A DNA stretch of 64,000 bases from an uncultured Pelagibacteraceae bacterium. GTDB lineage: Bacteria; Pseudomonadota; Alphaproteobacteria; Pelagibacterales; AG-422-B15. Under the pieces are notes generated by a model. The model was given only the letters and a program-made list of their open reading frames with translations, was not told the DNA's origin and made no database searches. The position numbers were made by a program, and so were the translations under genes. Shown here one piece after another: positions 2 through 11,302 of the stretch (position 1 is the first letter of the stretch; each line of letters starts with the position of its first letter). Location: positions 62,001 through 126,000 of the forward strand of contig CACMWW010000003.1 in the NCBI GenBank assembly GCA_902617525.1, written 5' to 3'.

Positions 2-3000
2 AATGAAGATGCAACAATTAATCGAAGCACTTCGGACTCTCAAGAGTTAGATCATGACGACACCGACCCTGATGCCGATGATGCGTCTGGTAGCTTTACA
101 ATCACTGCAATTAGAACAGGAAGAGAATCTGCAACCAGTGGAACAACTGCAGGCACAATCGGACAGGCTCTAAATGGTACTTACGGTGTATTAACTGTAG
201 CTGCAGATGGTAGCTATAGCTATGCCGCAACCAGAAGCGGAGCAGATGCGTTAGCGGCAGGAGTATCAGCAATTGATTATTTTACCTATACAGTAAGAGA
301 TCATGCAAGCAGTCCAAATGATACAGATACTGCTGAGCTTGCAATAACAGTAACAGGAGTAGGTCCAAGTGCGAGCAATGATACTGGCAGTGTAAATGAA
401 AATGCAACTCTAACAGCAAATGCTGGTGCAGGTGTAATTGCAAATGACACAGGTGGCGACACAGAAAGTCTCGCAGTTACTAACATCAGTTCAAATGCTA
501 CTGGAAACAGTGGTAACGCTGCTCAAGGTGTTCTTGGAACATATGGTACGCTCACAGTAGCTGCTGATGGCAGTTATACTTATGTTGCTAACACAGCAGC
601 AGCAGAAGCACTCGATGCAGGTGACGAAGTCACAGATATTTTTACTTATACAGTCAAAGATGATGATGATGTTAATTCAGATACAGCAACTCTAACGATT
701 ACAGTTACAGGTGTAGACGATGACCCAGTTGGTAACAATGATGCAGGCGCAATCAATGAGGATAAAACCCTTACTGTTAGCGCGGGAAGCGGAGTATTAT
801 CAAATGATACTGATGCAGATGCTAGTTCAAGTCTATCAGTTTCTGCAATTTCGGGCGGTACAGTTGGTGCATCATTAAATGGAACCTATGGTGTTCTGAC
901 TTTGAGTTCAGATGGTAGTTATACTTATGTTGCAAATGGTAGAAGTGAGGATGGTCTCGCTGCTGACGCCACGGCAACCGATACATTCACGTATACCGTA
1001 AGTGATGGAGCAGGAACAACCGATACAGCAGATTTAGTCATCACAGTAACCGGAGTTGGTCCGCAAGCCGTTAATGATACCGGTGCAGTCAATGAAGATG
1101 CCACTTTAACAGTAAATGAAGCATCTGGTGTAATCAGTAATGATGATGACAATGCAAGTTACGACGTAGAGAGTTTAGCCATAACTGGCATTTCTCACGG
1201 CGTTACTGGAAATAGTGGTAATGCTGCACAAGCTGTTACTGGAACATACGGTGTTTTAACTATGGCGGCTGATGGTAGCTATACATATGTTGCTAACCAA
1301 GCAGCGGCTGATGAACTTGATCCGAGTGAGACGGCAACAGATGTGTTTACATACACCGTTAAAGACGATGCTGATAAAAATGCCAGTACTGCAACATTAA
1401 CCATAACCGTAACGGGGTTAGCTGATGCAATCACTGCTGTTGATGATACAGATGCAGTAAATGCTGGTAGCACAATTTCGAGAAGCACGAGCGATACACA
1501 AGAACTTGATCACGATGACACCGATGATGATGGTGATGATGTTCCAGGTAGCTTAACCATTACAGCAATACGAACTGGTCAAAAATCAGGCAGTGGTGAC
1601 GCTAAAACACTTGGGCAATCGTTTACTACAACTTATGGAACAGTAACAATCAATGCTGACGGTTCATATTCTTACGCTGCCAATCGAAGTGGCGCAATGA
1701 GCTTATCTGATGGTGCGACTGCAGTTGATTACTTCACATATACTGTAAGAGACCAATCTGGCAATACCTCTAATGGACAACTTGCAATTACTGTGACTGG
1801 AATTGACTCAGGATCAAATAACGCTCCTGTTGCCAATAACGATACTGGAGCTGTTGATGAAGATGCAACACTTACAGTAAATGCAGCCAGTGGGGCTGAA
1901 TCAAATGATAGTGATCCAGATGGAGATGATATTTCTGTTGTGGCTATATCTGGAGGATCTGTTGGCTCAGCTGTAACAGGTACTTATGGACAATTAACAA
2001 TAGCTGCTGATGGAAGTTACACGTACGTAGCAAACCAAGCAGCAGCTGATGCGCTTGATGCTGGGGATCAAGTAACAGATGTGTTCACATATACTCTTCA
2101 AGATGATGGCACTCCAAACTTGCAGGACACAGCGACAATTACTATAACAGTGACAGGTGTAGACGATGATCCTGTAGGTGTTAATGATGCAGGCGCTGTC
2201 AATGAAGATGCTACACTATCAGTAAATGCTGGAAGCGGTGTTTTGTCTAATGATACTGATGCAGATGCAAGCTCAAGTTTATCTGTTTCAGGTATCAACG
2301 GGGGTACAGTCGGCCAAGCATTAACAGGAACATACGGTACCCTCACACTCAATTCTGATGGCAGCTATTCATATGCTGCAAATACCACTGGTGCTGATGG
2401 GTTAGCACATGGCGCAACTGCAACCGATACATTTACTTATACTGTAAGTGATGGAGCGGGAACAACCGATACAGCAAATTTAGTCATCACAGTTACAGGT
2501 GTAGGTCCAGTCGGTTCAGCGGATACGGCTACTGCAACTGAGAACCAAACATTATCAGTTAATGCGGCAAGTGGAGTATTAACAAACGATACTGGCGGAG
2601 ATACGGAGAGCCTTGCTGTTACTAATGTGTCGTCAAACGGTACAGGTGCTAGCGGCGGTGCAGGAGCTGGAGTTTTAGGTACTTATGGAACATTAACAGT
2701 AGCGGCTGATGGAAGTTATACATACATAGCGAATACGGCTGCAGCAGAAGCCTTGGATGCAGGCGATAGTGTCACCGAAGTATTTACATACACTGTAAAG
2801 GATGATGACGATAAGAACTCATCGACTGCAACTCTTACAATAACTATAAATGGAGCTAACGATGCAATTGTTGCTGTTGATGATACGGATAGTGTCAATG
2901 AGGATGCAACTATTAGTCGAACCGTAAGTGACCCAGAGGAACTAGATCATGACGATACAGATGTTGATGGTGATGATACCAGTGGAAGTTTTACAATAAC

Positions 3001-3985
3001 CGATATCAGAACAGGTCCAAAAGATGGAACAGGAACTGATGGTACGGTTGGAGTTGCACTAACTGGTGAGTTTGGAACACTGACAGTGAATGCGGATGGA
3101 TCATATACTTATGTTGCAGATCAAGACAAATCAGATCAATTGGCTACTGGCGCAACAGGAACAGATACATTTACTTATACAGTTAGTGATGGTACAGAAA
3201 CGTCAACTGCTCAATTGACTTTTACAGTTACTGGTATCAATGACAACGATCCTGTTGCAGTTGATGATACAGATACTGTTAAACGTGATGCTTCTATAAC
3301 GCGTGATGCTGGTTCAGCGTTTGATGTTGACTCAGATGATACAGATGCGGATAGTGACTCTCTTACAATTTCAGAAGTACGTACTGGCCAAGTTGAAGGC
3401 GGGGGTAGAGGAGGCAGCAGTTCTGTTGGAACTACGCTTGTAGGAACTTATGGTACCTTGACATTAAATGCTGACGGTAGCTATACCTATGCGGCAGATC
3501 AGGATGCAGCAAATAGTTTGAAAAGGGGCGATAGTGCCATTGATTATTTTAACTATACCGTCACAGATGGAAGCAGAACAGATACCGGAGTAATTGCCAT
3601 AACAGTTAGTGGTATCAGTGATCCACCGGTTCCAAGGGATGATACATTGGCAGTTGATGCAGGCGCTACAGCTACAAAAAATGCAGCAAAAGGTGTGCTT
3701 AAAAATGATACAGACCCGGATGGAGATACTTTAACGGTCGATAGTATAAGAACTGGTAGAGAAAATAAAACTGGCACATCTGGCACAGTTGGCACAGCAC
3801 TAACTGGAACTTACGGTGATCTTACGATTAATTCTGATGGTAGTTATGAGTATAAAGCAAACAATGCTGGACGGCTTAATCCAGGTGAAACAGCCACAGA
3901 ATATTTTACTTATACAGCAACAGATACCGATACATCGGTAGCAGCTCAAATCGCAATTACAGTTACCGGTATAAATGATCCACCT
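2..3985 (+). repeat. Tandem VCBS-type coding repeats (~11 units of ~350-390 bp)
   Basis: ADGSY(T/S)Y core recurs near nt 205, 565, 910, 1270, 1660, 2010, 2355, 2710, 3095, 3470 and 3835. Confidence 0.9.
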
Positions 3986-5359
3986 GAACTATTATATCCT
4001 GTTCGAGATCCAAATATAGTTGTTGGCGAGCCAATCATTATTAGACACAAGCAAATTTTTGATGACCCAGACACAGGTATTTATGACATCGCAGAATACA
4101 AGATTATTGATCCTGAAACAGAATCAGAAACCAGTCTGCCAGATGGACTGAGATTAAAACAAAATAAGCTCCATGGAACCATCAACACACCTGGGACCTA
4201 TACAATTACGATTAGAGCAATCGATGGTGAAGGACTTTATGCTGATCATACGTTTACAATTACAGTAAATCCTAAACCAGTAGAAATGGTTGAAAAAGAG
4301 ACACCTGATGAAGAACCTACACCTCCATCTAAACCAATTGTTATTAAACCAAAAAAAGATTTTTTAGCAGCTATTCAAGAGACCATTACTGAGGCGCCAG
4401 CAATCAGCGATGATGGGTTCACACTTGATACAGTTTCAATTGCTGATACCGCTTCTCTCTCAAAACCATTGAAGTTTAACGGTGGATTGAGATTGATGGA
4501 TGCTGTTGCAAACGAAGTTTCAGGCGATACAGAATCTGATCTAAAAGTTGGAGTTAAACTAAATGATGATAATCAGAAAAATGTTGAATTGTACTCAGGT
4601 CAGCTTTCTAACGGTGAAGCTTTACCTGAATGGATTAAGGTCAATCCTGAAACTGGAGAAACAACAGCTGATATGCCAGAAGGTGTTGAAGCGGTCGAGG
4701 TTCAGTTGGTAGCCCTTGATAAAGACGGAAACACAAGAGATATTAATATTGTTTTAGATAAAGCTAAAATTAAAGGCGACCAAGATTTCACAAGGGGAGC
4801 TGTTGATCAGGCAAGGGTCGTTGTTGATAATGATTCAAATGTAAACTTGATTAGAGAGAACAATAATGCATCAAGTAATGCGGCAAATAATAATTTGAAC
4901 GCTGAAACAGATTTTGAAGGTACAATGAAGCTAAGCAGTCTTCAAATGAATGCGGGCCAATTCACAGTTGATGTAATTGATGACAATCAGTCAAATGTGA
5001 AAATGTACAAAGCAGAGCTCAAAGGTGGTGGCGCATTGCCTGATTGGATTACAATTGATCCTGAAACTGGAAAAATTGCAGCTGACCCGTCAAAGGGAAG
5101 AACAGGCTCAGCAGCCCCAGCATTCTTAACTGAAAGCCTTCAAGTTCTTGAACTGAAAATTATTGCTGAAGACGAAGATGGAAAAGAAAGAATTATTGAA
5201 GTTGAGATTGATCTTAATGAAATAACTGAAAACGAGTCAGATGGCGAAAATTCTGCAACAAACGATGAAATCTCTTTCATTCCACTTGATGAACAATTAA
5301 AGCTACATGCTAAAGCAGCAGATAGCTATGGCGAAAAGATTGTATCTCTAGTAAGTTAA
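2..5359 (+). CDS. Giant VCBS/cadherin-like repeat surface or secreted protein, 5' truncated by window edge
   Basis: The ORF track starts at 902, but frame 2 is open from the window edge (NEDATINRSTSDSQELDHDDTD...). About 11 copies of a ~115-130 aa module with GTYGxLTxxADGSYTYxAN and FTYTVxDG motifs, then a CADG-like domain and two related C-terminal LP(E/D)WIxxxPETG modules. Confidence 0.9.
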   Translation, partial: NEDATINRSTSDSQELDHDDTDPDADDASGSFTITAIRTGRESATSGTTAGTIGQALNGTYGVLTVAADGSYSYAATRSGADALAAGVSAIDYFTYTVRDHASSPNDTDTAELAITVTGVGPSASNDTGSVNENATLTANAGAGVIANDTGGDTESLAVTNISSNATGNSGNAAQGVLGTYGTLTVAADGSYTYVANTAAAEALDAGDEVTDIFTYTVKDDDDVNSDTATLTITVTGVDDDPVGNNDAGAINEDKTLTVSAGSGVLSNDTDADASSSLSVSAISGGTVGASLNGTYGVLTLSSDGSYTYVANGRSEDGLAADATATDTFTYTVSDGAGTTDTADLVITVTGVGPQAVNDTGAVNEDATLTVNEASGVISNDDDNASYDVESLAITGISHGVTGNSGNAAQAVTGTYGVLTMAADGSYTYVANQAAADELDPSETATDVFTYTVKDDADKNASTATLTITVTGLADAITAVDDTDAVNAGSTISRSTSDTQELDHDDTDDDGDDVPGSLTITAIRTGQKSGSGDAKTLGQSFTTTYGTVTINADGSYSYAANRSGAMSLSDGATAVDYFTYTVRDQSGNTSNGQLAITVTGIDSGSNNAPVANNDTGAVDEDATLTVNAASGAESNDSDPDGDDISVVAISGGSVGSAVTGTYGQLTIAADGSYTYVANQAAADALDAGDQVTDVFTYTLQDDGTPNLQDTATITITVTGVDDDPVGVNDAGAVNEDATLSVNAGSGVLSNDTDADASSSLSVSGINGGTVGQALTGTYGTLTLNSDGSYSYAANTTGADGLAHGATATDTFTYTVSDGAGTTDTANLVITVTGVGPVGSADTATATENQTLSVNAASGVLTNDTGGDTESLAVTNVSSNGTGASGGAGAGVLGTYGTLTVAADGSYTYIANTAAAEALDAGDSVTEVFTYTVKDDDDKNSSTATLTITINGANDAIVAVDDTDSVNEDATISRTVSDPEELDHDDTDVDGDDTSGSFTITDIRTGPKDGTGTDGTVGVALTGEFGTLTVNADGSYTYVADQDKSDQLATGATGTDTFTYTVSDGTETSTAQLTFTVTGINDNDPVAVDDTDTVKRDASITRDAGSAFDVDSDDTDADSDSLTISEVRTGQVEGGGRGGSSSVGTTLVGTYGTLTLNADGSYTYAADQDAANSLKRGDSAIDYFNYTVTDGSRTDTGVIAITVSGISDPPVPRDDTLAVDAGATATKNAAKGVLKNDTDPDGDTLTVDSIRTGRENKTGTSGTVGTALTGTYGDLTINSDGSYEYKANNAGRLNPGETATEYFTYTATDTDTSVAAQIAITVTGINDPPELLYPVRDPNIVVGEPIIIRHKQIFDDPDTGIYDIAEYKIIDPETESETSLPDGLRLKQNKLHGTINTPGTYTITIRAIDGEGLYADHTFTITVNPKPVEMVEKETPDEEPTPPSKPIVIKPKKDFLAAIQETITEAPAISDDGFTLDTVSIADTASLSKPLKFNGGLRLMDAVANEVSGDTESDLKVGVKLNDDNQKNVELYSGQLSNGEALPEWIKVNPETGETTADMPEGVEAVEVQLVALDKDGNTRDINIVLDKAKIKGDQDFTRGAVDQARVVVDNDSNVNLIRENNNASSNAANNNLNAETDFEGTMKLSSLQMNAGQFTVDVIDDNQSNVKMYKAELKGGGALPDWITIDPETGKIAADPSKGRTGSAAPAFLTESLQVLELKIIAEDEDGKERIIEVEIDLNEITENESDGENSATNDEISFIPLDEQLKLHAKAADSYGEKIVSLVS

Positions 5360-5370
5360 TAAATACCTTT

Positions 5371-6090
5371 ATGAACAAAATTGTAACATTTGCGGTAACA
5401 GCGTGCTGCATATTATTGCCTTATAATTTGTCAGCAGAAGAATATTCCACACGTGTTTTAGTAACTGCAACCGAAGAGGCAACACTCTCAAGTGAACTTG
5501 CTGCAAAAGTTGAGTCAATCCCAATTGATGAAGGATCTAAATTTAAAGAGTCTGATATTTTAATTAAATTTGATTGCTCATTTTTTGAAGAACAAAGAAA
5601 AGTTGTTGAAGCGCAATTAGAGAGTGCAAGAGTAACTCTAAAGAGCAATCAAGACCTTGCGTTGATGAGATCCATAGGAGAATATGAGGTTCAGTTATCA
5701 GAAATCGATGTAAAGCGTGCAGAAGCTGAATTACAGATTGCTAAACTCAATACAGATCGATGTATAATTAAAGCCCCATATGATGGTAAAGTTTCTAAAG
5801 TTTTTGTAAACGAGTTTGAAAGCATTGAAAGGCAACAGCCATTGGTTGAAATCATAGGCTCTGGAATTCTTGAGGCCAAATTGATTGTTTCAAGCAAATG
5901 GTTGGCTTGGATCGATGAGGGTTATCCAATGAAAATCAGCATTGATGAAAATGGGCAAACATATAGTGCCAAAATTCACACTATCGGCGTTGATATTGAT
6001 CCCGTCAGCCAAACCATCGACATTACTGCAAAATTTGATGAAAATTATGATACATTACTGCCAGGCATGAGTGGGACAGCAACGTTTTGA
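5371..6090 (+). CDS. HlyD/RND-type periplasmic adaptor protein
   Basis: N-terminal signal peptide; split lipoyl halves around a coiled-coil region (SSELAAKVESIPIDEGSKFKESDILIKFD ... CIIKAPYDGKVSKVFVNEFESI). Confidence 0.8.
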   Translation: MNKIVTFAVTACCILLPYNLSAEEYSTRVLVTATEEATLSSELAAKVESIPIDEGSKFKESDILIKFDCSFFEEQRKVVEAQLESARVTLKSNQDLALMRSIGEYEVQLSEIDVKRAEAELQIAKLNTDRCIIKAPYDGKVSKVFVNEFESIERQQPLVEIIGSGILEAKLIVSSKWLAWIDEGYPMKISIDENGQTYSAKIHTIGVDIDPVSQTIDITAKFDENYDTLLPGMSGTATF

Positions 6091-7424
6091 ATGATAATAC
6101 TTCAATAAAAATAGCAAGACTAATTACTCTTGAGAAAAAATTTCGGACAGCAGAAAACTTATCCGAACTCGGATTTGTTTGTGCAAATGAGTTAAGAAGT
6201 GTTGTTGATTATAATTTTTTATTTTTTCTCACAAAGTCTGCTACAGGTCGACAGAAAGTCCAAACGATCTCTGATATTTCAGTCGTTGATAGAACAGCGC
6301 CGACAGTTACGTTTGTTGAAAGATTAATAAATAAAAAGAAAGTTGAACCTGGAGTTTTTTCAGAAGTTTCAATTAGTGATTTAAGAGAAGATGGTACAAA
6401 TTTAGATTTACCTGTAAATTTTCCAAACGAGTTAATGGTTGTTCCATTAATTTCAAGAATAAAGGGCGATTTAGGTTCTCTAGTTATTGTACGATCTAAT
6501 AAAGTTTCAAATACAGAAAAAGAACTGCTCCAACATATTGCTGAAACATTCAGTCATGCATTGGACTCATTTTTATCAAGAGGATCGATCATATCATTCA
6601 TTGGTAGAATTTTTTCAGGTTGGTTAAAGTGGTTAATATTATCAGCGATTGCACTTGCAATGTTAATGCCAATTAATATATCCGCAGTAGCTCCAGTTGA
6701 GGTTATTGCTAAAAATCCGTCAGTTGTTACATCGCCAGTGAATGGTGTAGTTAAAAAAGTATTAGTTAACACAAATGATGCTGTTGATATTGGCATGGAG
6801 CTTGTAAAACTAGATGATCTTAATTTTAAATCTCAATACGAAATAAACTTACAAGAATTAGAAGTTGCTGAAGCAGAATTACTAAGGGCTAAACAATCCT
6901 CATTTACAAATGATGAGGCAAAAGCAAAACTCGTTGAACTATCAACTGAAGTTGCGTTGAAAAAAAAGCAAGTCGCTTATGCTGAGGAACAATTAAAATA
7001 TTCTGTTATCAAAGCGGAGGTTTCGGGCGTTGCTGTTGTTGAAGACTTTATTGATTGGCAAGGTCGTCCTGTAAATATAGGTGAAAAGATACTAACTATT
7101 GCAAATTCAGACGATATTGAGTTCTTAATTTACCTGCCGACAAAAGACTCACTTTTTATTGAAAAATCCGCAAGAGTTAAGGTTTTTTTAGACAGTAGCC
7201 CACTTAGCTCAATTGAAGGAAAAATATTAAGAACTTCTTACAAACCTGAATTAACAGCCGAGAATATTTTAGCTTATAAAATACACGCTAGCCTTGAGGA
7301 TAATATTGAGCCGCCGCGTATTGGATTACGAGGATCAGCAAAAATTTACGGAGATCGGACATCTCTTTTTTATTATATCTTTAGAGTTCCAATCAATATC
7401 AGCAGACAGTTTTTAGGAATATAA
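6087..7424 (+). CDS. GAF-like domain + TM + HlyD-type adaptor hybrid
   Basis: N-terminal GAF-like region, one TM (WLKWLILSAIALAMLMPI), then lipoyl/HlyD (VTSPVNGVVKKVLVNTNDAVDIGMELVKLDD). TTG start overlaps the upstream stop. Confidence 0.7.
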   Translation: MNDNTSIKIARLITLEKKFRTAENLSELGFVCANELRSVVDYNFLFFLTKSATGRQKVQTISDISVVDRTAPTVTFVERLINKKKVEPGVFSEVSISDLREDGTNLDLPVNFPNELMVVPLISRIKGDLGSLVIVRSNKVSNTEKELLQHIAETFSHALDSFLSRGSIISFIGRIFSGWLKWLILSAIALAMLMPINISAVAPVEVIAKNPSVVTSPVNGVVKKVLVNTNDAVDIGMELVKLDDLNFKSQYEINLQELEVAEAELLRAKQSSFTNDEAKAKLVELSTEVALKKKQVAYAEEQLKYSVIKAEVSGVAVVEDFIDWQGRPVNIGEKILTIANSDDIEFLIYLPTKDSLFIEKSARVKVFLDSSPLSSIEGKILRTSYKPELTAENILAYKIHASLEDNIEPPRIGLRGSAKIYGDRTSLFYYIFRVPINISRQFLGI

Positions 7425-9533
7425 ATGATTGTACCGTCTATCCGACAAGATTTGAAACTTAGTGAGGGACCAAAGAAAGAGGACGGCTCAGCATCATGGC
7501 TTCTTTATGACTCATTAAGAAATAAATACTTTTCAATAAACAAAAAAGCATTTGATCTTCTTAAAAATTGGTCAAGTGGAATTGAGACAACAGAATTTAT
7601 TGAAAAAATTAAAAAAAGTAATTTGTCTATTACACAAGAAGAAATTGAAGAATTTATCAGTTTTCTAAATCTTAATAATTTAACTATTAAAAAAACAAGT
7701 GATGAAGTTAAATCTTTGGTTGTTCAAAAAGAGAAACTAAACAAGCACTGGCTGTTAAAAATTATTCATAATTATTTGTTCTTTAAAATCCCATTATTCA
7801 AACCAGGAAATGGTCTTGAAAACAGTTTACCTTTTGCATTGTTTCTTGGATCGCAAACCAGCAGACTTATAATTTATATTCTGGGGATTATTGGTATCTT
7901 TTTAACAATCCAAAACTATGAAACATTTTTAACAACATTTTCTTATTTCTTTAATGTTAATGGATTGATTTTGTTTGGTATAACGATTGTTTTTGTAAAA
8001 GCCTTGCACGAACTTGGGCACGCATATGTTGCCACTTATTATAAATGTAAAGTTTCTTCAATTGGTCTTGCAATGCTGGTTTTTTTTCCCTTCTTGTACA
8101 CAGATACAACTGATGCATATAAATTAACTGATCATAGAAAACGCTTACTGATTAATTTTGCTGGCATGCTGACTGAATTGCATCTTGCCCTTCTTGCAAC
8201 ATTTGTTTGGGCTGTAAGCCCTGAAGGCGTTATCAAAAGTGCTTCATTTTTTATTGCGACCTCAAGCTGGATATCATCACTTCTTATTAATATCAGTCCG
8301 TTTATGAGATTTGACGGTTACTATGTGCTCTCAGATTTTCTTAAAGCGGAAAATCTTCAACCACGCTCTTTTGCTTTAGGTCGATGGCAGATTAGAGAAT
8401 GGATCTTTGGATTTAAATTCCAACCACCGGAACAACTCATGAGTCAAAGACGGTGGACTTTCATCATTTACGCTTGGATGACATGGATATATCGCTTCTT
8501 CATATTTATTGGAATTGCTTTATTGGTTTATTATTTAACATTCAAAATTCTTGGCATAATTCTGTTCATTATTGAGATTGTTTGGTTCATTTTACTACCA
8601 ATTTGGAGAGAAATTAAACAGTGGTGGGGACTTAGAAGGTACATGCGTTTTAATTGGACTTCATTGAGATCAATTTTTATTTTCTCAGTATTTTTGGCAG
8701 CAATGTTAGTGCCATGGCGAAGTTCACTCAGTCTTCCTGCGGTGATTGATCGAGGTGAAGTTGTCGATATCTATCCAACAGAAGCCTCTGAGATAAAAGA
8801 GATTTTTGTTATCTCAGATCAACAAGTCGAAAAGGGTGATTTATTAATTACAATGATGAGTCCGTCTTTATCAAATAAAGTTGATAAAGCCATTGAGCGC
8901 GTAAAGATGATACAGCAAAAACTGGATCGTCGAATTGGATCAGAGGCTGATATGAGCAACCTCATGGTATTAGAAAACCAATTGAAAGTAGAGTTTGAAA
9001 TTCTTAAAAGTCTTAGAGAGGAAAATGAAAATCTCTCAATTTATGCACCAATGAGTGGGGTAATAAAAGATCTAAAGTATTTAAATAATGGACAGTGGGT
9101 AAATTTAAAAGAAAAATTATTTTCTATTGTTCAATTCAATGACACTAAAGTTGTTGCATTTATAAGTGAGAATGATTTGGATAAACTTGAAAGCAATACA
9201 AGTGGTTATTTCGTTCCAAAAAATAATGAATTTGATGAAACAGAAGTTATATTGGTTTCACAAAATAATACATCGACAGAAGAACTTCCTTACTTATCAT
9301 TAGTATCTACTTTTGGTGGATCAATTGCTTCACGTGAAGTTAAGGGAGATGGAAAAGTTATTTATCGACCAGAAGAAGCCTTATACCAGCTGAATTTTTC
9401 TACAATTACAGAAGTTGAGACTGTTCAGTGGCAAACTGCGGGTAATGTAAAAATTCAAAGTGGAAACTATAATATTTTTCAAAACTTATTTAACTTGGTT
9501 TCATCAACATTAATCAGAGAAAGTGGATTTTAG
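7425..9533 (+). CDS. PqqD-like N-terminus + M50/site-2-protease-like membrane core + C-terminal lipoyl/HlyD domain
   Basis: HELGH motif (about nt 8007-8021) within a TM helix, second motif FMRFDGYYVLSD, C-terminal lipoyl-like ISDQQVEKGDLLITM / IYAPMSGVIKDL; N-terminus resembles the PqqD fold (LLYDSLRNKYFSINKKAFDLLKNW). Confidence 0.75.
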   Translation: MIVPSIRQDLKLSEGPKKEDGSASWLLYDSLRNKYFSINKKAFDLLKNWSSGIETTEFIEKIKKSNLSITQEEIEEFISFLNLNNLTIKKTSDEVKSLVVQKEKLNKHWLLKIIHNYLFFKIPLFKPGNGLENSLPFALFLGSQTSRLIIYILGIIGIFLTIQNYETFLTTFSYFFNVNGLILFGITIVFVKALHELGHAYVATYYKCKVSSIGLAMLVFFPFLYTDTTDAYKLTDHRKRLLINFAGMLTELHLALLATFVWAVSPEGVIKSASFFIATSSWISSLLINISPFMRFDGYYVLSDFLKAENLQPRSFALGRWQIREWIFGFKFQPPEQLMSQRRWTFIIYAWMTWIYRFFIFIGIALLVYYLTFKILGIILFIIEIVWFILLPIWREIKQWWGLRRYMRFNWTSLRSIFIFSVFLAAMLVPWRSSLSLPAVIDRGEVVDIYPTEASEIKEIFVISDQQVEKGDLLITMMSPSLSNKVDKAIERVKMIQQKLDRRIGSEADMSNLMVLENQLKVEFEILKSLREENENLSIYAPMSGVIKDLKYLNNGQWVNLKEKLFSIVQFNDTKVVAFISENDLDKLESNTSGYFVPKNNEFDETEVILVSQNNTSTEELPYLSLVSTFGGSIASREVKGDGKVIYRPEEALYQLNFSTITEVETVQWQTAGNVKIQSGNYNIFQNLFNLVSSTLIRESGF

Positions 9534-9607
9534 TGGTGCCCCTAGCTGGTTACGCTCCAGCGGCTGATCATTACCAATGACCTGCTTTACTATTAAGCGA
9601 TAGGGGC
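9534..9607 (-). tRNA. Divergent tRNA-Thr(GGT)-like cloverleaf with noncanonical D- and T-loops
   Basis: Minus strand: GCCCCTA TC GCTT AATAGTA AAGC A GGTCA TTGGTAA TGATC AGCC GCTGG AGCGTAA CCAGC TAGGGGC ACCA. Stems are 7/7, 4/4, 5/5 (one G-U) and 5/5; U33 and anticodon GGU present; CCA encoded. No GG in D-loop, no TTC in T-loop. Confidence 0.7.
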
Positions 9608-9617
9608 TCAATAGAAA

Positions 9618-10379
9618 CTATTCTTTTGTGCCATAACCTTTTGTAATAGCAATTGCCACGCCAGCAATACAAATGCTCAAGAAAGCAACTAAAGAAATAA
9701 CACTGACCCAAATATTAATATCAGATGCCCCGTAAAAGGACCATCTCATACCATTCACAAGATATAAAACAGGGTTAAAATATGTTACGTTTTGCCAAAA
9801 TTCTGGAAGCATTTCTACAGTATAGAGACTACCTCCTAAAAAAACTAAAGGGGTCACGATGATAAGTGGCACAACTTGTAATTGTTCAAAGTTTTCACTA
9901 AGTAGTCCTATTAGAAATCCAAAAAGACTAAATGTAAGACATGTTAATACCAAAAGAAAAAACATTAATAAGGGGTATTGAATTTGGAGTTCAACGAAAA
10001 AAGTTGCAGTAATGAGTATAATGACGCCAACAATAAGTGATTTAGTTGCACTGGCGCCAACAAATCCTATGATAATTTCTAAAGAGGAAATAGGCGCCGC
10101 AAGGACTTCATAAATCGATCCAGTAAATTTTGGAAAAAATATTCCAAACGAAGAGTTTGATATACTTTGAGTTAATAAAGTCAGCATTAATAAACCAGGT
10201 ACGATGAATGATCCATAACTAACACCTTCAATTTGCGGAATCATGCCCCCAATAACTGAACCAAATACAATGAAATATAGAGAAGTCGAGAGCACAGGTG
10301 AAAGTACGCTTTGAAAGAGAGTTCTTCTCATTCGATCCATTTCATGAAAATAAATTGCTCTGATTGCGTAAAAATTCAT
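9618..10379 (-). CDS. ABC-2 type transporter permease
   Basis: Six-TM ABC-2 membrane protein; 1-nt overlap with the upstream ATPase gene. Confidence 0.85.
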   Translation of the reverse strand: MNFYAIRAIYFHEMDRMRRTLFQSVLSPVLSTSLYFIVFGSVIGGMIPQIEGVSYGSFIVPGLLMLTLLTQSISNSSFGIFFPKFTGSIYEVLAAPISSLEIIIGFVGASATKSLIVGVIILITATFFVELQIQYPLLMFFLLVLTCLTFSLFGFLIGLLSENFEQLQVVPLIIVTPLVFLGGSLYTVEMLPEFWQNVTYFNPVLYLVNGMRWSFYGASDINIWVSVISLVAFLSICIAGVAIAITKGYGTKE

Positions 10380-11302
10380 TATTTTTCCTTTACCAATTCT
10401 ACAAAGATCTTTTCAAGTGAACTTTGCTCTGTATTTAAATCTTTAAGTTTTAAGCCGGCCTCTTTCATATCTTGCAAGAGAGAAGTTATTCCAGTTTGTT
10501 TACTTTGTGTATCGTATTGGTAATCAATTGATAAACCTTCATTAACTATCGTAAGTTTATAATTATTTAAAGACTCAGGTAATGTCTTAACTGTTTCATG
10601 TAAATCAATTGTTAGTGTTTTCTGACCCAAACTTTTTATCAAATTTGAAGTTTCATCAACTACTATCATCTCACCTTTATTAATAACTGCTACCCGGTCA
10701 GCAATTGCCTCTGCTTCTTCTATATAATGAGTTGTTAAAATTATTGTAACACCTTTATTTCTTAAATTCTTAATGACTTCCCACATATCTTTTCTTAATT
10801 CGACATCAACACCGGCCGTTGGCTCATCAAGAAATAAGACTGAAGGTTCATGAGAAAGAGCTTTAGCAATCAAGACTCGCCTTTTCATTCCACCAGACAG
10901 CTCATTAATTTTGGAGTCTTTTTTATCCCACAAACTTAAATCTTTTAGTATTTTTTTTATATGCTGAGGATTAGGAGGCTTACCGTACAAGCCTCTCGTA
11001 TAGGATACATTGTTATAAACAATTTCAAATTGCTCCAGGGTTAGCTCCTGAGGTACAAGTCCAATTTGTGACCTAGTTTCTCTATAATCTTTAATAATAT
11101 CGTAATTACCAACCTCAACTGTCCCAATACTTGGTGTTACTATTCCGCAAATAATACTAATCAAAGTTGTTTTACCTGCACCATTAGGTCCAAGAAGTGC
11201 AAATATTTCATTCCGTTTGATATCTAAATTAATATTATTGAGTGCCTGAAATTGATTACTGTAAGTTTTAGATAAATTCTTTACTGAGACGACATTTTGC
11301 AT
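10379..11302 (-). CDS. ABC transporter ATP-binding protein (ABC-2/drug-export type)
   Basis: Walker A GPNGAGKTT, signature LSGGMKRRV, Walker B VLFLDEPTAG. Confidence 0.92.
   Translation of the reverse strand: MQNVVSVKNLSKTYSNQFQALNNINLDIKRNEIFALLGPNGAGKTTLISIICGIVTPSIGTVEVGNYDIIKDYRETRSQIGLVPQELTLEQFEIVYNNVSYTRGLYGKPPNPQHIKKILKDLSLWDKKDSKINELSGGMKRRVLIAKALSHEPSVLFLDEPTAGVDVELRKDMWEVIKNLRNKGVTIILTTHYIEEAEAIADRVAVINKGEMIVVDETSNLIKSLGQKTLTIDLHETVKTLPESLNNYKLTIVNEGLSIDYQYDTQSKQTGITSLLQDMKEAGLKLKDLNTEQSSLEKIFVELVKEK

Follow-up and report, generated by a model that had tools for sequence, protein, structure and literature searches.

A threonine tRNA gene of SAR11 bacteria with an alternative, covarying elbow that recurs in phage tRNA arrays

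The 18·55 and 54·58 contacts of the tRNA elbow are regarded as near-universal, and one gene in the window (the whole 64,000-nucleotide stretch of DNA analysed here) carries neither in its usual form. This gene (9534..9607, minus strand) reads as a 74-nucleotide tRNA-Thr(GGU) with an encoded CCA and an alternative elbow. The gene is conserved and almost certainly functional. The source genome is SAR11, and its family, AG-422-B15, is probably SAR11 clade II.

Read directly from 9607 down to 9534, the minus strand (GCCCCTATCGCTTAATAGTAAAGCAGGTCATTGGTAATGATCAGCCGCTGGAGCGTAACCAGCTAGGGGCACCA) divides into the segments GCCCCTA, TC, GCTT, AATAGTA, AAGC, A, GGTCA, TTGGTAA, TGATC, AGCC, GCTGG, AGCGTAA, CCAGC, TAGGGGC, A and CCA, and forms a full cloverleaf with 21 of 21 stem pairs, one of them G-U. 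T8, A14, A21, A26, U33, the GGU anticodon (9573..9575, minus strand), A37, A73 and the CCA end are all in place, in agreement with an earlier, sequence-only reading of this DNA. The anticodon, G1-C72 and C2-G71 mark the gene as tRNA-Thr(GGU), the two pairs being identity elements for threonyl-tRNA synthetase (ThrRS). The D-loop AATAGTA (9588..9594, minus strand) assigns as A14 A15 U16 A18 G19 U20 A21, and the T-loop AGCGTAA (9550..9556, minus strand) as A54 G55 C56 G57 U58 A59 A60. The canonical combination of G18 G19 with U54 U55 C56 R57 A58 is thus absent from the window tRNA: the 18·55 contact has changed from G·U to A·G, 54·58 from U-A to A-U, and Y60 to A, and C9 is also unusual. The description in the sequence-only reading, with a D-loop lacking the GG pair and an exchange at 54 and 58, is accurate, with the refinements that only G18 is lost while G19 stays, and that the T-loop keeps C56 and G57. 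A G19-C56 pair consequently remains possible.

The Rfam tRNA model (RF00005) scored the window gene at 50.9 bits (E 5.7e-8 over the window) against a gathering cut-off of 29 bits, so the suggested covariance-model check came out in favour of a tRNA, though with the lowest score among the 29 tRNAs of the genome (an assembly of 1.1 Mb, 86% complete). The minimum free energy z-score was -3.07, and none of the shuffled sequences (0) folded equally well. ARAGORN, run on the window, called no tRNA at 9607..9534 and likewise fails on the same A-U allele in relatives, so that ARAGORN-based annotations of SAR11 genomes would lack the gene.

Comparisons with relatives address whether the gene is decaying. 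The window-type tRNA was found in 33 of 54 family genomes, spread over four genera (one copy, in G003, is cut by a contig end), and 27 of the best 30 family matches are base-identical over the 74 nucleotides. A GTDB scan with the D-loop AATAGTA and the T-arm GAGCGTAAC matched 32 contigs, 31 from SAR11 (labelled Pelagibacteraceae or Pelagibacterales) and one assigned to Verrucomicrobiales, a tRNA array on a 29-kb contig of a metagenome-assembled genome (L074) that is probably phage DNA. Across 11 loci that share their flanks, median identity is 0.936 for the neighbouring ABC gene (0.824 at whichever codon position varies most) and 1.000 for the tRNA; the coding flanks diverge, third codon positions most, while the tRNA stays identical. 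The rare changes are compensatory. In L049 the T-stem has gone from GCTGG/CCAGC to ACCGG/CCGGT, in L050 an A-U pair of the anticodon stem has become G-C, and L051 and L052 carry paired changes in the acceptor and T-stems; the D-, T-, anticodon and variable loops are invariant in all four. The gene thus belongs to the Rfam tRNA family, with four stems that covary among relatives, and the conclusion that it is under selection, as the sequence-only reading had proposed with covariation in relatives as the check, is strongly supported. Separately, G052 holds a half copy of the gene, which we considered as a relic of another allele and rejected as such; it derives from the A-U allele and is a decayed duplicate of it.

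The distribution of threonine isoacceptors bears on what the gene does. Among the genome's 28 further tRNAs there is a Thr(UGU) and no second Thr(GGU), and a canonical Thr(GGU) pattern, applied with and without CCA, gave no true match in the family genomes, which answers in the negative the question raised earlier of a second, canonical tRNA-Thr(GGT). Four apparent matches in the family proved to be variable-arm sequence of tRNA-Leu. In the sister family, the same pattern found a match in about 53 of the 144 genomes. Relatives without the window allele have a different Thr(GGU) (GCCCCCATAGCACAATGGTAGTGCAACGCATTGGTAATGCGTAGATACCTGGTCAGTACAGGTTGGGGGCACCA) at the same syntenic locus, which is also non-canonical, with T-loop GTCAGTA, G54·G58 and G18·U55. 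Among the 54 family genomes, 33 carry the A-U allele, 11 the G·G allele, one a split G·G allele and nine neither; no genome has both (0; p = 9e-7), and the two are thus mutually exclusive. The nine with neither are mostly incomplete, and two of them, G049 and G001, are each at least 90% complete, on which ground a genome with Thr(UGU) may be able to do without Thr(GGU). In the sister family, a GTCAGTA Thr(GGU) is present in eight of 15 genomes that lack the canonical form, and one more of these 15, G071, combines A18·G55 with U54-A58. Four elbow states of Thr(GGU) therefore occur within the SAR11 order, and positions 18 and 55 are matched in all of them.

ACU and ACC make up 398 of the 885 threonine codons in the long open reading frames of the window, and the window tRNA appears, as far as found, to be the only G34 threonine tRNA of its genome. 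The sequence-only reading had raised the possibility of a non-ribosomal or specialised tRNA. In its acceptor stem, anticodon and CCA the gene matches any ordinary tRNA-Thr, and no canonical Thr(GGU) turned up in the family, which leaves that proposal unsupported; for the same reasons the gene looks like a normal, lineage-specific Thr(GGU). A normal tRNA of this kind is the outcome that the sequence-only reading had itself named in advance as refuting its proposal.

An ABC-2 permease gene (9618-10379, minus strand) ends 10 bp before the tRNA on the same strand and is preceded by its partner ATPase gene (10379-11302, minus strand); on the other side, a convergent M50/HlyD gene (7425..9533, plus strand) has its stop codon directly against the 3' A of the tRNA. 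That gene is the last of a set on the plus strand (902-9533) that begins with a repeat-rich, secreted-type protein of 1485 amino acids, followed by two HlyD-type genes, and is probably an adhesin secretion operon. No gene pointing to a tRNA-dependent pathway lies near the tRNA and no integrase in the flanks examined, and the window holds no split tRNA and no tRNA-dependent integration arrangement.

In relatives, mobile DNA inserts at the same gene. In G042, G021 and G038 the ABC genes are followed by nucleotides 1-38 of the tRNA, then by cargo, the full tRNA and the M50 gene; the duplicated stretch corresponds to 9570..9607 (minus strand) in the window, which is the unoccupied form of the locus, with the ABC genes meeting the tRNA directly. 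Copies of nucleotides 1-38 stand beside differing cargo in these three genomes and in G024, where two elements apparently sit in tandem, and one complete tRNA copy is left in every case. A direct repeat of tRNA sequence, variable cargo and an empty site (the window, against G042, G021 and G038) are the marks of a tRNA-targeted island. Some cassettes carry T5orf172 and DUF4116 proteins; in others the cargo pairs a type IIG restriction-methylase with a PLD/SNF2 helicase, likely an anti-phage system. Cassettes at four loci (L053, L055, L056 and L057) have common left and right terminal sequences around their differing cargo. None of the cassettes examined contains a recognised integrase, and each of 17 genomes tested, a set that left out G015, has at most two tyrosine recombinases, XerC/XerD-like, none of them near the tRNA in cassette-bearing genomes. 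Several SAR11 relatives also have a urease operon in the variable region beside the Thr(GGU) gene (L059 2320-7142, L055 150-1444, L537-L541 and L543), in several cases with the Rfam 5' ureB small RNA.

One relative, G015, has a different arrangement, and it alone has the features of tRNA-dependent integration. An element of about 9.1 kb (C1:109135-118296; L539 13735-20000 plus L540 1-3100), encoding mostly unknown proteins, lies inside the anticodon loop of a G·G allele, with core TTGGTAA, and the 5' and 3' halves of that allele remain on either side. Just inside the element is an intact, different Thr(GGU) with T-loop GTCAGTA, next to a gene for a 407-amino-acid protein with Arm-DNA-binding and Phage_integrase domains. 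The surrogate tRNA is thus of the G·G class and not the A-U class. The element is possibly a SAR11 phage satellite that uses tRNA-dependent integration.

The window elbow itself recurs in phages. A strict pattern matched 13 IMG/VR viral contigs, where the elbow sits on differing isotypes within tRNA arrays, and broader patterns, with position 55 free and A or G at 18, recovered at least 219 stem-complete tRNAs. A54-U58 elbows, both the A18·G55 form and a sister form with G18·U55, occur in phage arrays on at least 22 anticodons, and we define the alternative-elbow class by A54-U58 with a matched 18·55, as in the window tRNA. A stem-based scan with the T-loop unconstrained gave 2,816 unique CCA-ending tRNAs from 358 phage loci, of which 2,362 have U-A and 337 A-U at 54·58. 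Other T-loops among the 2,816 (phage loci L095-L511) include A54·A58 (58), G54·G58 (31) and C54·A58 (23). Among the 1,100 phage tRNAs with a 7-nucleotide D-loop, G19 and C56, positions 18/55 are G/U in 949 and A/G in 145, and neither A/U nor G/G occurs (0 each). Over all D-loop lengths, and with no positions assumed in advance, 2,727 of 2,733 tRNAs with U55 have a GG in the D-loop, and 193 of 203 with G55 have none. These phage counts are phylogenetically non-independent and come from loci chosen for holding an A-U tRNA, but both 18/55 states are spread over many anticodons and more than 100 contigs, and the covariation also holds among SAR11 Thr(GGU) genes. In an alignment of 47 SAR11, alternative phage and canonical phage tRNAs, 91.7% of cells were paired, compared with about 31-42% in slid controls, and 54-58 is paired in 47 of 47 rows with changes on both sides. 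Judged from these sequences, the rewired elbow is maintained through covariation. Two things lay beyond the sequence-only reading: tRNAs with the altered elbow form a covarying class that recurs in phages, and mobile elements use the gene as an attachment site.

The A-U tRNA is usually the sole tRNA with its anticodon in its phage array. Isolated phages with the A-U class are Pseudomonas phage 16Q (Ile, Pro), Xanthomonas phage X1 (Ile), Pectobacterium phages CBB and DU_PP_V (Ile) and Stenotrophomonas phage DLP_6 (Phe), and the records of isolated phages label the alternative-elbow genes plainly as tRNAs. Phage tRNAs of the A54-U58 class are markedly enriched for Ile(GAU) and Thr(GGU). In cells, a relaxed pattern that demanded a variable loop of 4 and CCA found, in 349 Pseudomonadota genomes, the window's own gene and none in the 348 others. 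The closest phage tRNA is alike at 55 of 74 positions; BLAST with the window tRNA found no match to the exact allele in the phage collection, and its 5' half found none in viral contigs. Two BLAST matches, Aeromonas phage 44RR2.8t and Campylobacter phage CP21, were set aside, as their matching tRNAs have canonical T-loops. An abiF RNA (Rfam RF03085; L102 11649-11685) was also seen beside one phage tRNA array that holds an alternative-elbow tRNA.

Set beside known systems, the window gene has in common with a canonical bacterial tRNA-Thr(GGU) the cloverleaf, G1-C72, C2-G71, GGU, CCA and G19-C56; the canonical tRNA has G·Psi at 18·55 and U-A at 54·58, where the window has A·G and A-U, plus A60 and C9. 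Phage-array tRNAs with T-loop AGCGTWA or ATCGTWA have the same 54·58 flip, those with AGCGTWA have A18·G55 as well, and their usual 7-nucleotide D-loop and 4-nucleotide variable loop are those of the window tRNA, although they lie in many-tRNA arrays and the window tRNA is a single chromosomal gene. In actinophage tRNA-dependent lysogeny, a phage tRNA replaces the host tRNA destroyed by integration (Guerrero-Bustamante and Hatfull, 2024; PMC10865867). G015 resembles this in its host tRNA split in the anticodon loop, short core, same isotype and tyrosine integrase, and differs in being SAR11, in its element of about 9 kb and in a non-canonical surrogate elbow, while the window is unoccupied; a term search of that text found no mention of the T-loop. 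Tycheposons and other flexible islands of marine bacteria (PMC10872708) likewise hold cargo bounded by a tRNA gene, nitrogen-related (urease) in some, whereas the SAR11 repeat is the 5' 38 nucleotides, with restriction systems among the cargo and no recombinase in the cassettes examined. Eukaryotic tRNA-Ala has an A54·A58 linked to R15·A48, reported as unobserved in bacteria or archaea (Westhof, 2020; PMC7566577). There, as in the window tRNA, selection keeps a non-canonical 54·58 pair, but that pair is purine-purine and the SAR11 and phage pair is A-U or G·G with 18·55 changes. Phage tRNAs that evade host tRNases are also altered relative to host tRNAs, but in the anticodon loop (PMC10264068); in term searches, neither that text nor PMC11555353 mentioned T-loop or elbow, and the open-access literature yielded nothing on point on T-loop or elbow variants of phage tRNAs.

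We therefore read the window gene as a translating tRNA-Thr(GGU) with an alternative elbow, probably left by a mobile element, with a probability of roughly 0.7. The main competitor, which we consider unlikely though worth keeping in view, is ordinary vertical descent within SAR11, in which the elbow would have drifted and been compensated at its own locus, elements merely targeting the gene. The four elbow states inside SAR11, the frequency with which tRNA genes serve as integration targets and the failure to find a donor element for the A-U allele in the phage collection or viral contigs all fit that history; it sits less well with two alleles that differ at 27 of 74 positions in one locus with no intermediates seen, with an elbow that phages often carry and cells almost never do, and with the surrogate-carrying element in G015.

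The remaining alternatives fare worse. That the altered elbow marks a non-ribosomal tRNA, comparable to the tRNA-Gly of staphylococcal cell-wall synthesis, or a decoy against nucleases that cleave tRNA, which phage tRNAs can counter (PMC10264068, PMC11555353), seems very improbable for a gene that behaves as the sole isoacceptor in the genomes searched, with no second Thr(GGU) in the family for ribosomal work and no neighbouring gene that points to a tRNA-dependent pathway. A DNA element kept for attachment or processing would account for the duplication of nucleotides 1-38 at cassette junctions; selection spans all 74 nucleotides, the 3' half among them, the changes within RNA stems are compensatory, and one complete copy survives each insertion, which leaves this idea barely tenable. 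Least credible of all is a decaying pseudogene: the lost GG and TTC elements and the lowest model score in the genome are set against base identity over several genera, compensatory changes and invariant loops, and the half copy in G052 serves as the contrast of true decay. Both the pseudogene and the pure attachment site were rejected on conservation and covariation.

Under the preferred reading of a translating, probably element-derived tRNA, the L-shape would be closed by the A-U at 54·58 and the A·G at 18·55, with G19-C56 retained. The tRNA would be transcribed with or beside the ABC operon, processed and charged by ThrRS, and then used on the ribosome for ACU and ACC codons. The A-U allele may have entered SAR11 as a phage or mobile-element surrogate and then become the resident Thr(GGU). 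Why phages keep such elbows is a matter of conjecture only: they may allow folding without host T54 and Psi55 modification, or escape from host factors that recognise the standard elbow, natural candidates because T54 is impossible in these tRNAs, as is Psi55 in the G55 form. Escape from integrases is unlikely as the reason, because attachment identity lies in nucleotides 1-38 or in the anticodon loop, outside the T-arm. A bolder reading, which we hold as tentative and rather doubtful, is that phages have a second elbow code (A·G for G·Psi at 18·55; A-U or G·G for U-A at 54·58) selected for modification independence or nuclease escape, and that SAR11, whose members rank among the ocean's most abundant bacteria, has repeatedly swapped its Thr(GGU) for such surrogates.

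Psi55 has been called universally conserved in a review (PMC4810234). A tRNA class in which covarying alternatives take the place of both elbow contacts, and which is common in phages and has become fixed in one major lineage of bacteria, would let the purpose of the elbow bases be probed, whether in modification, in contacts with RNase P and the ribosome or in recognition by host tRNases, and the alternative elbow could serve as a sequence marker for phage-derived tRNAs. The class also suggests that tRNA-dependent integration may permanently exchange a tRNA of the host.
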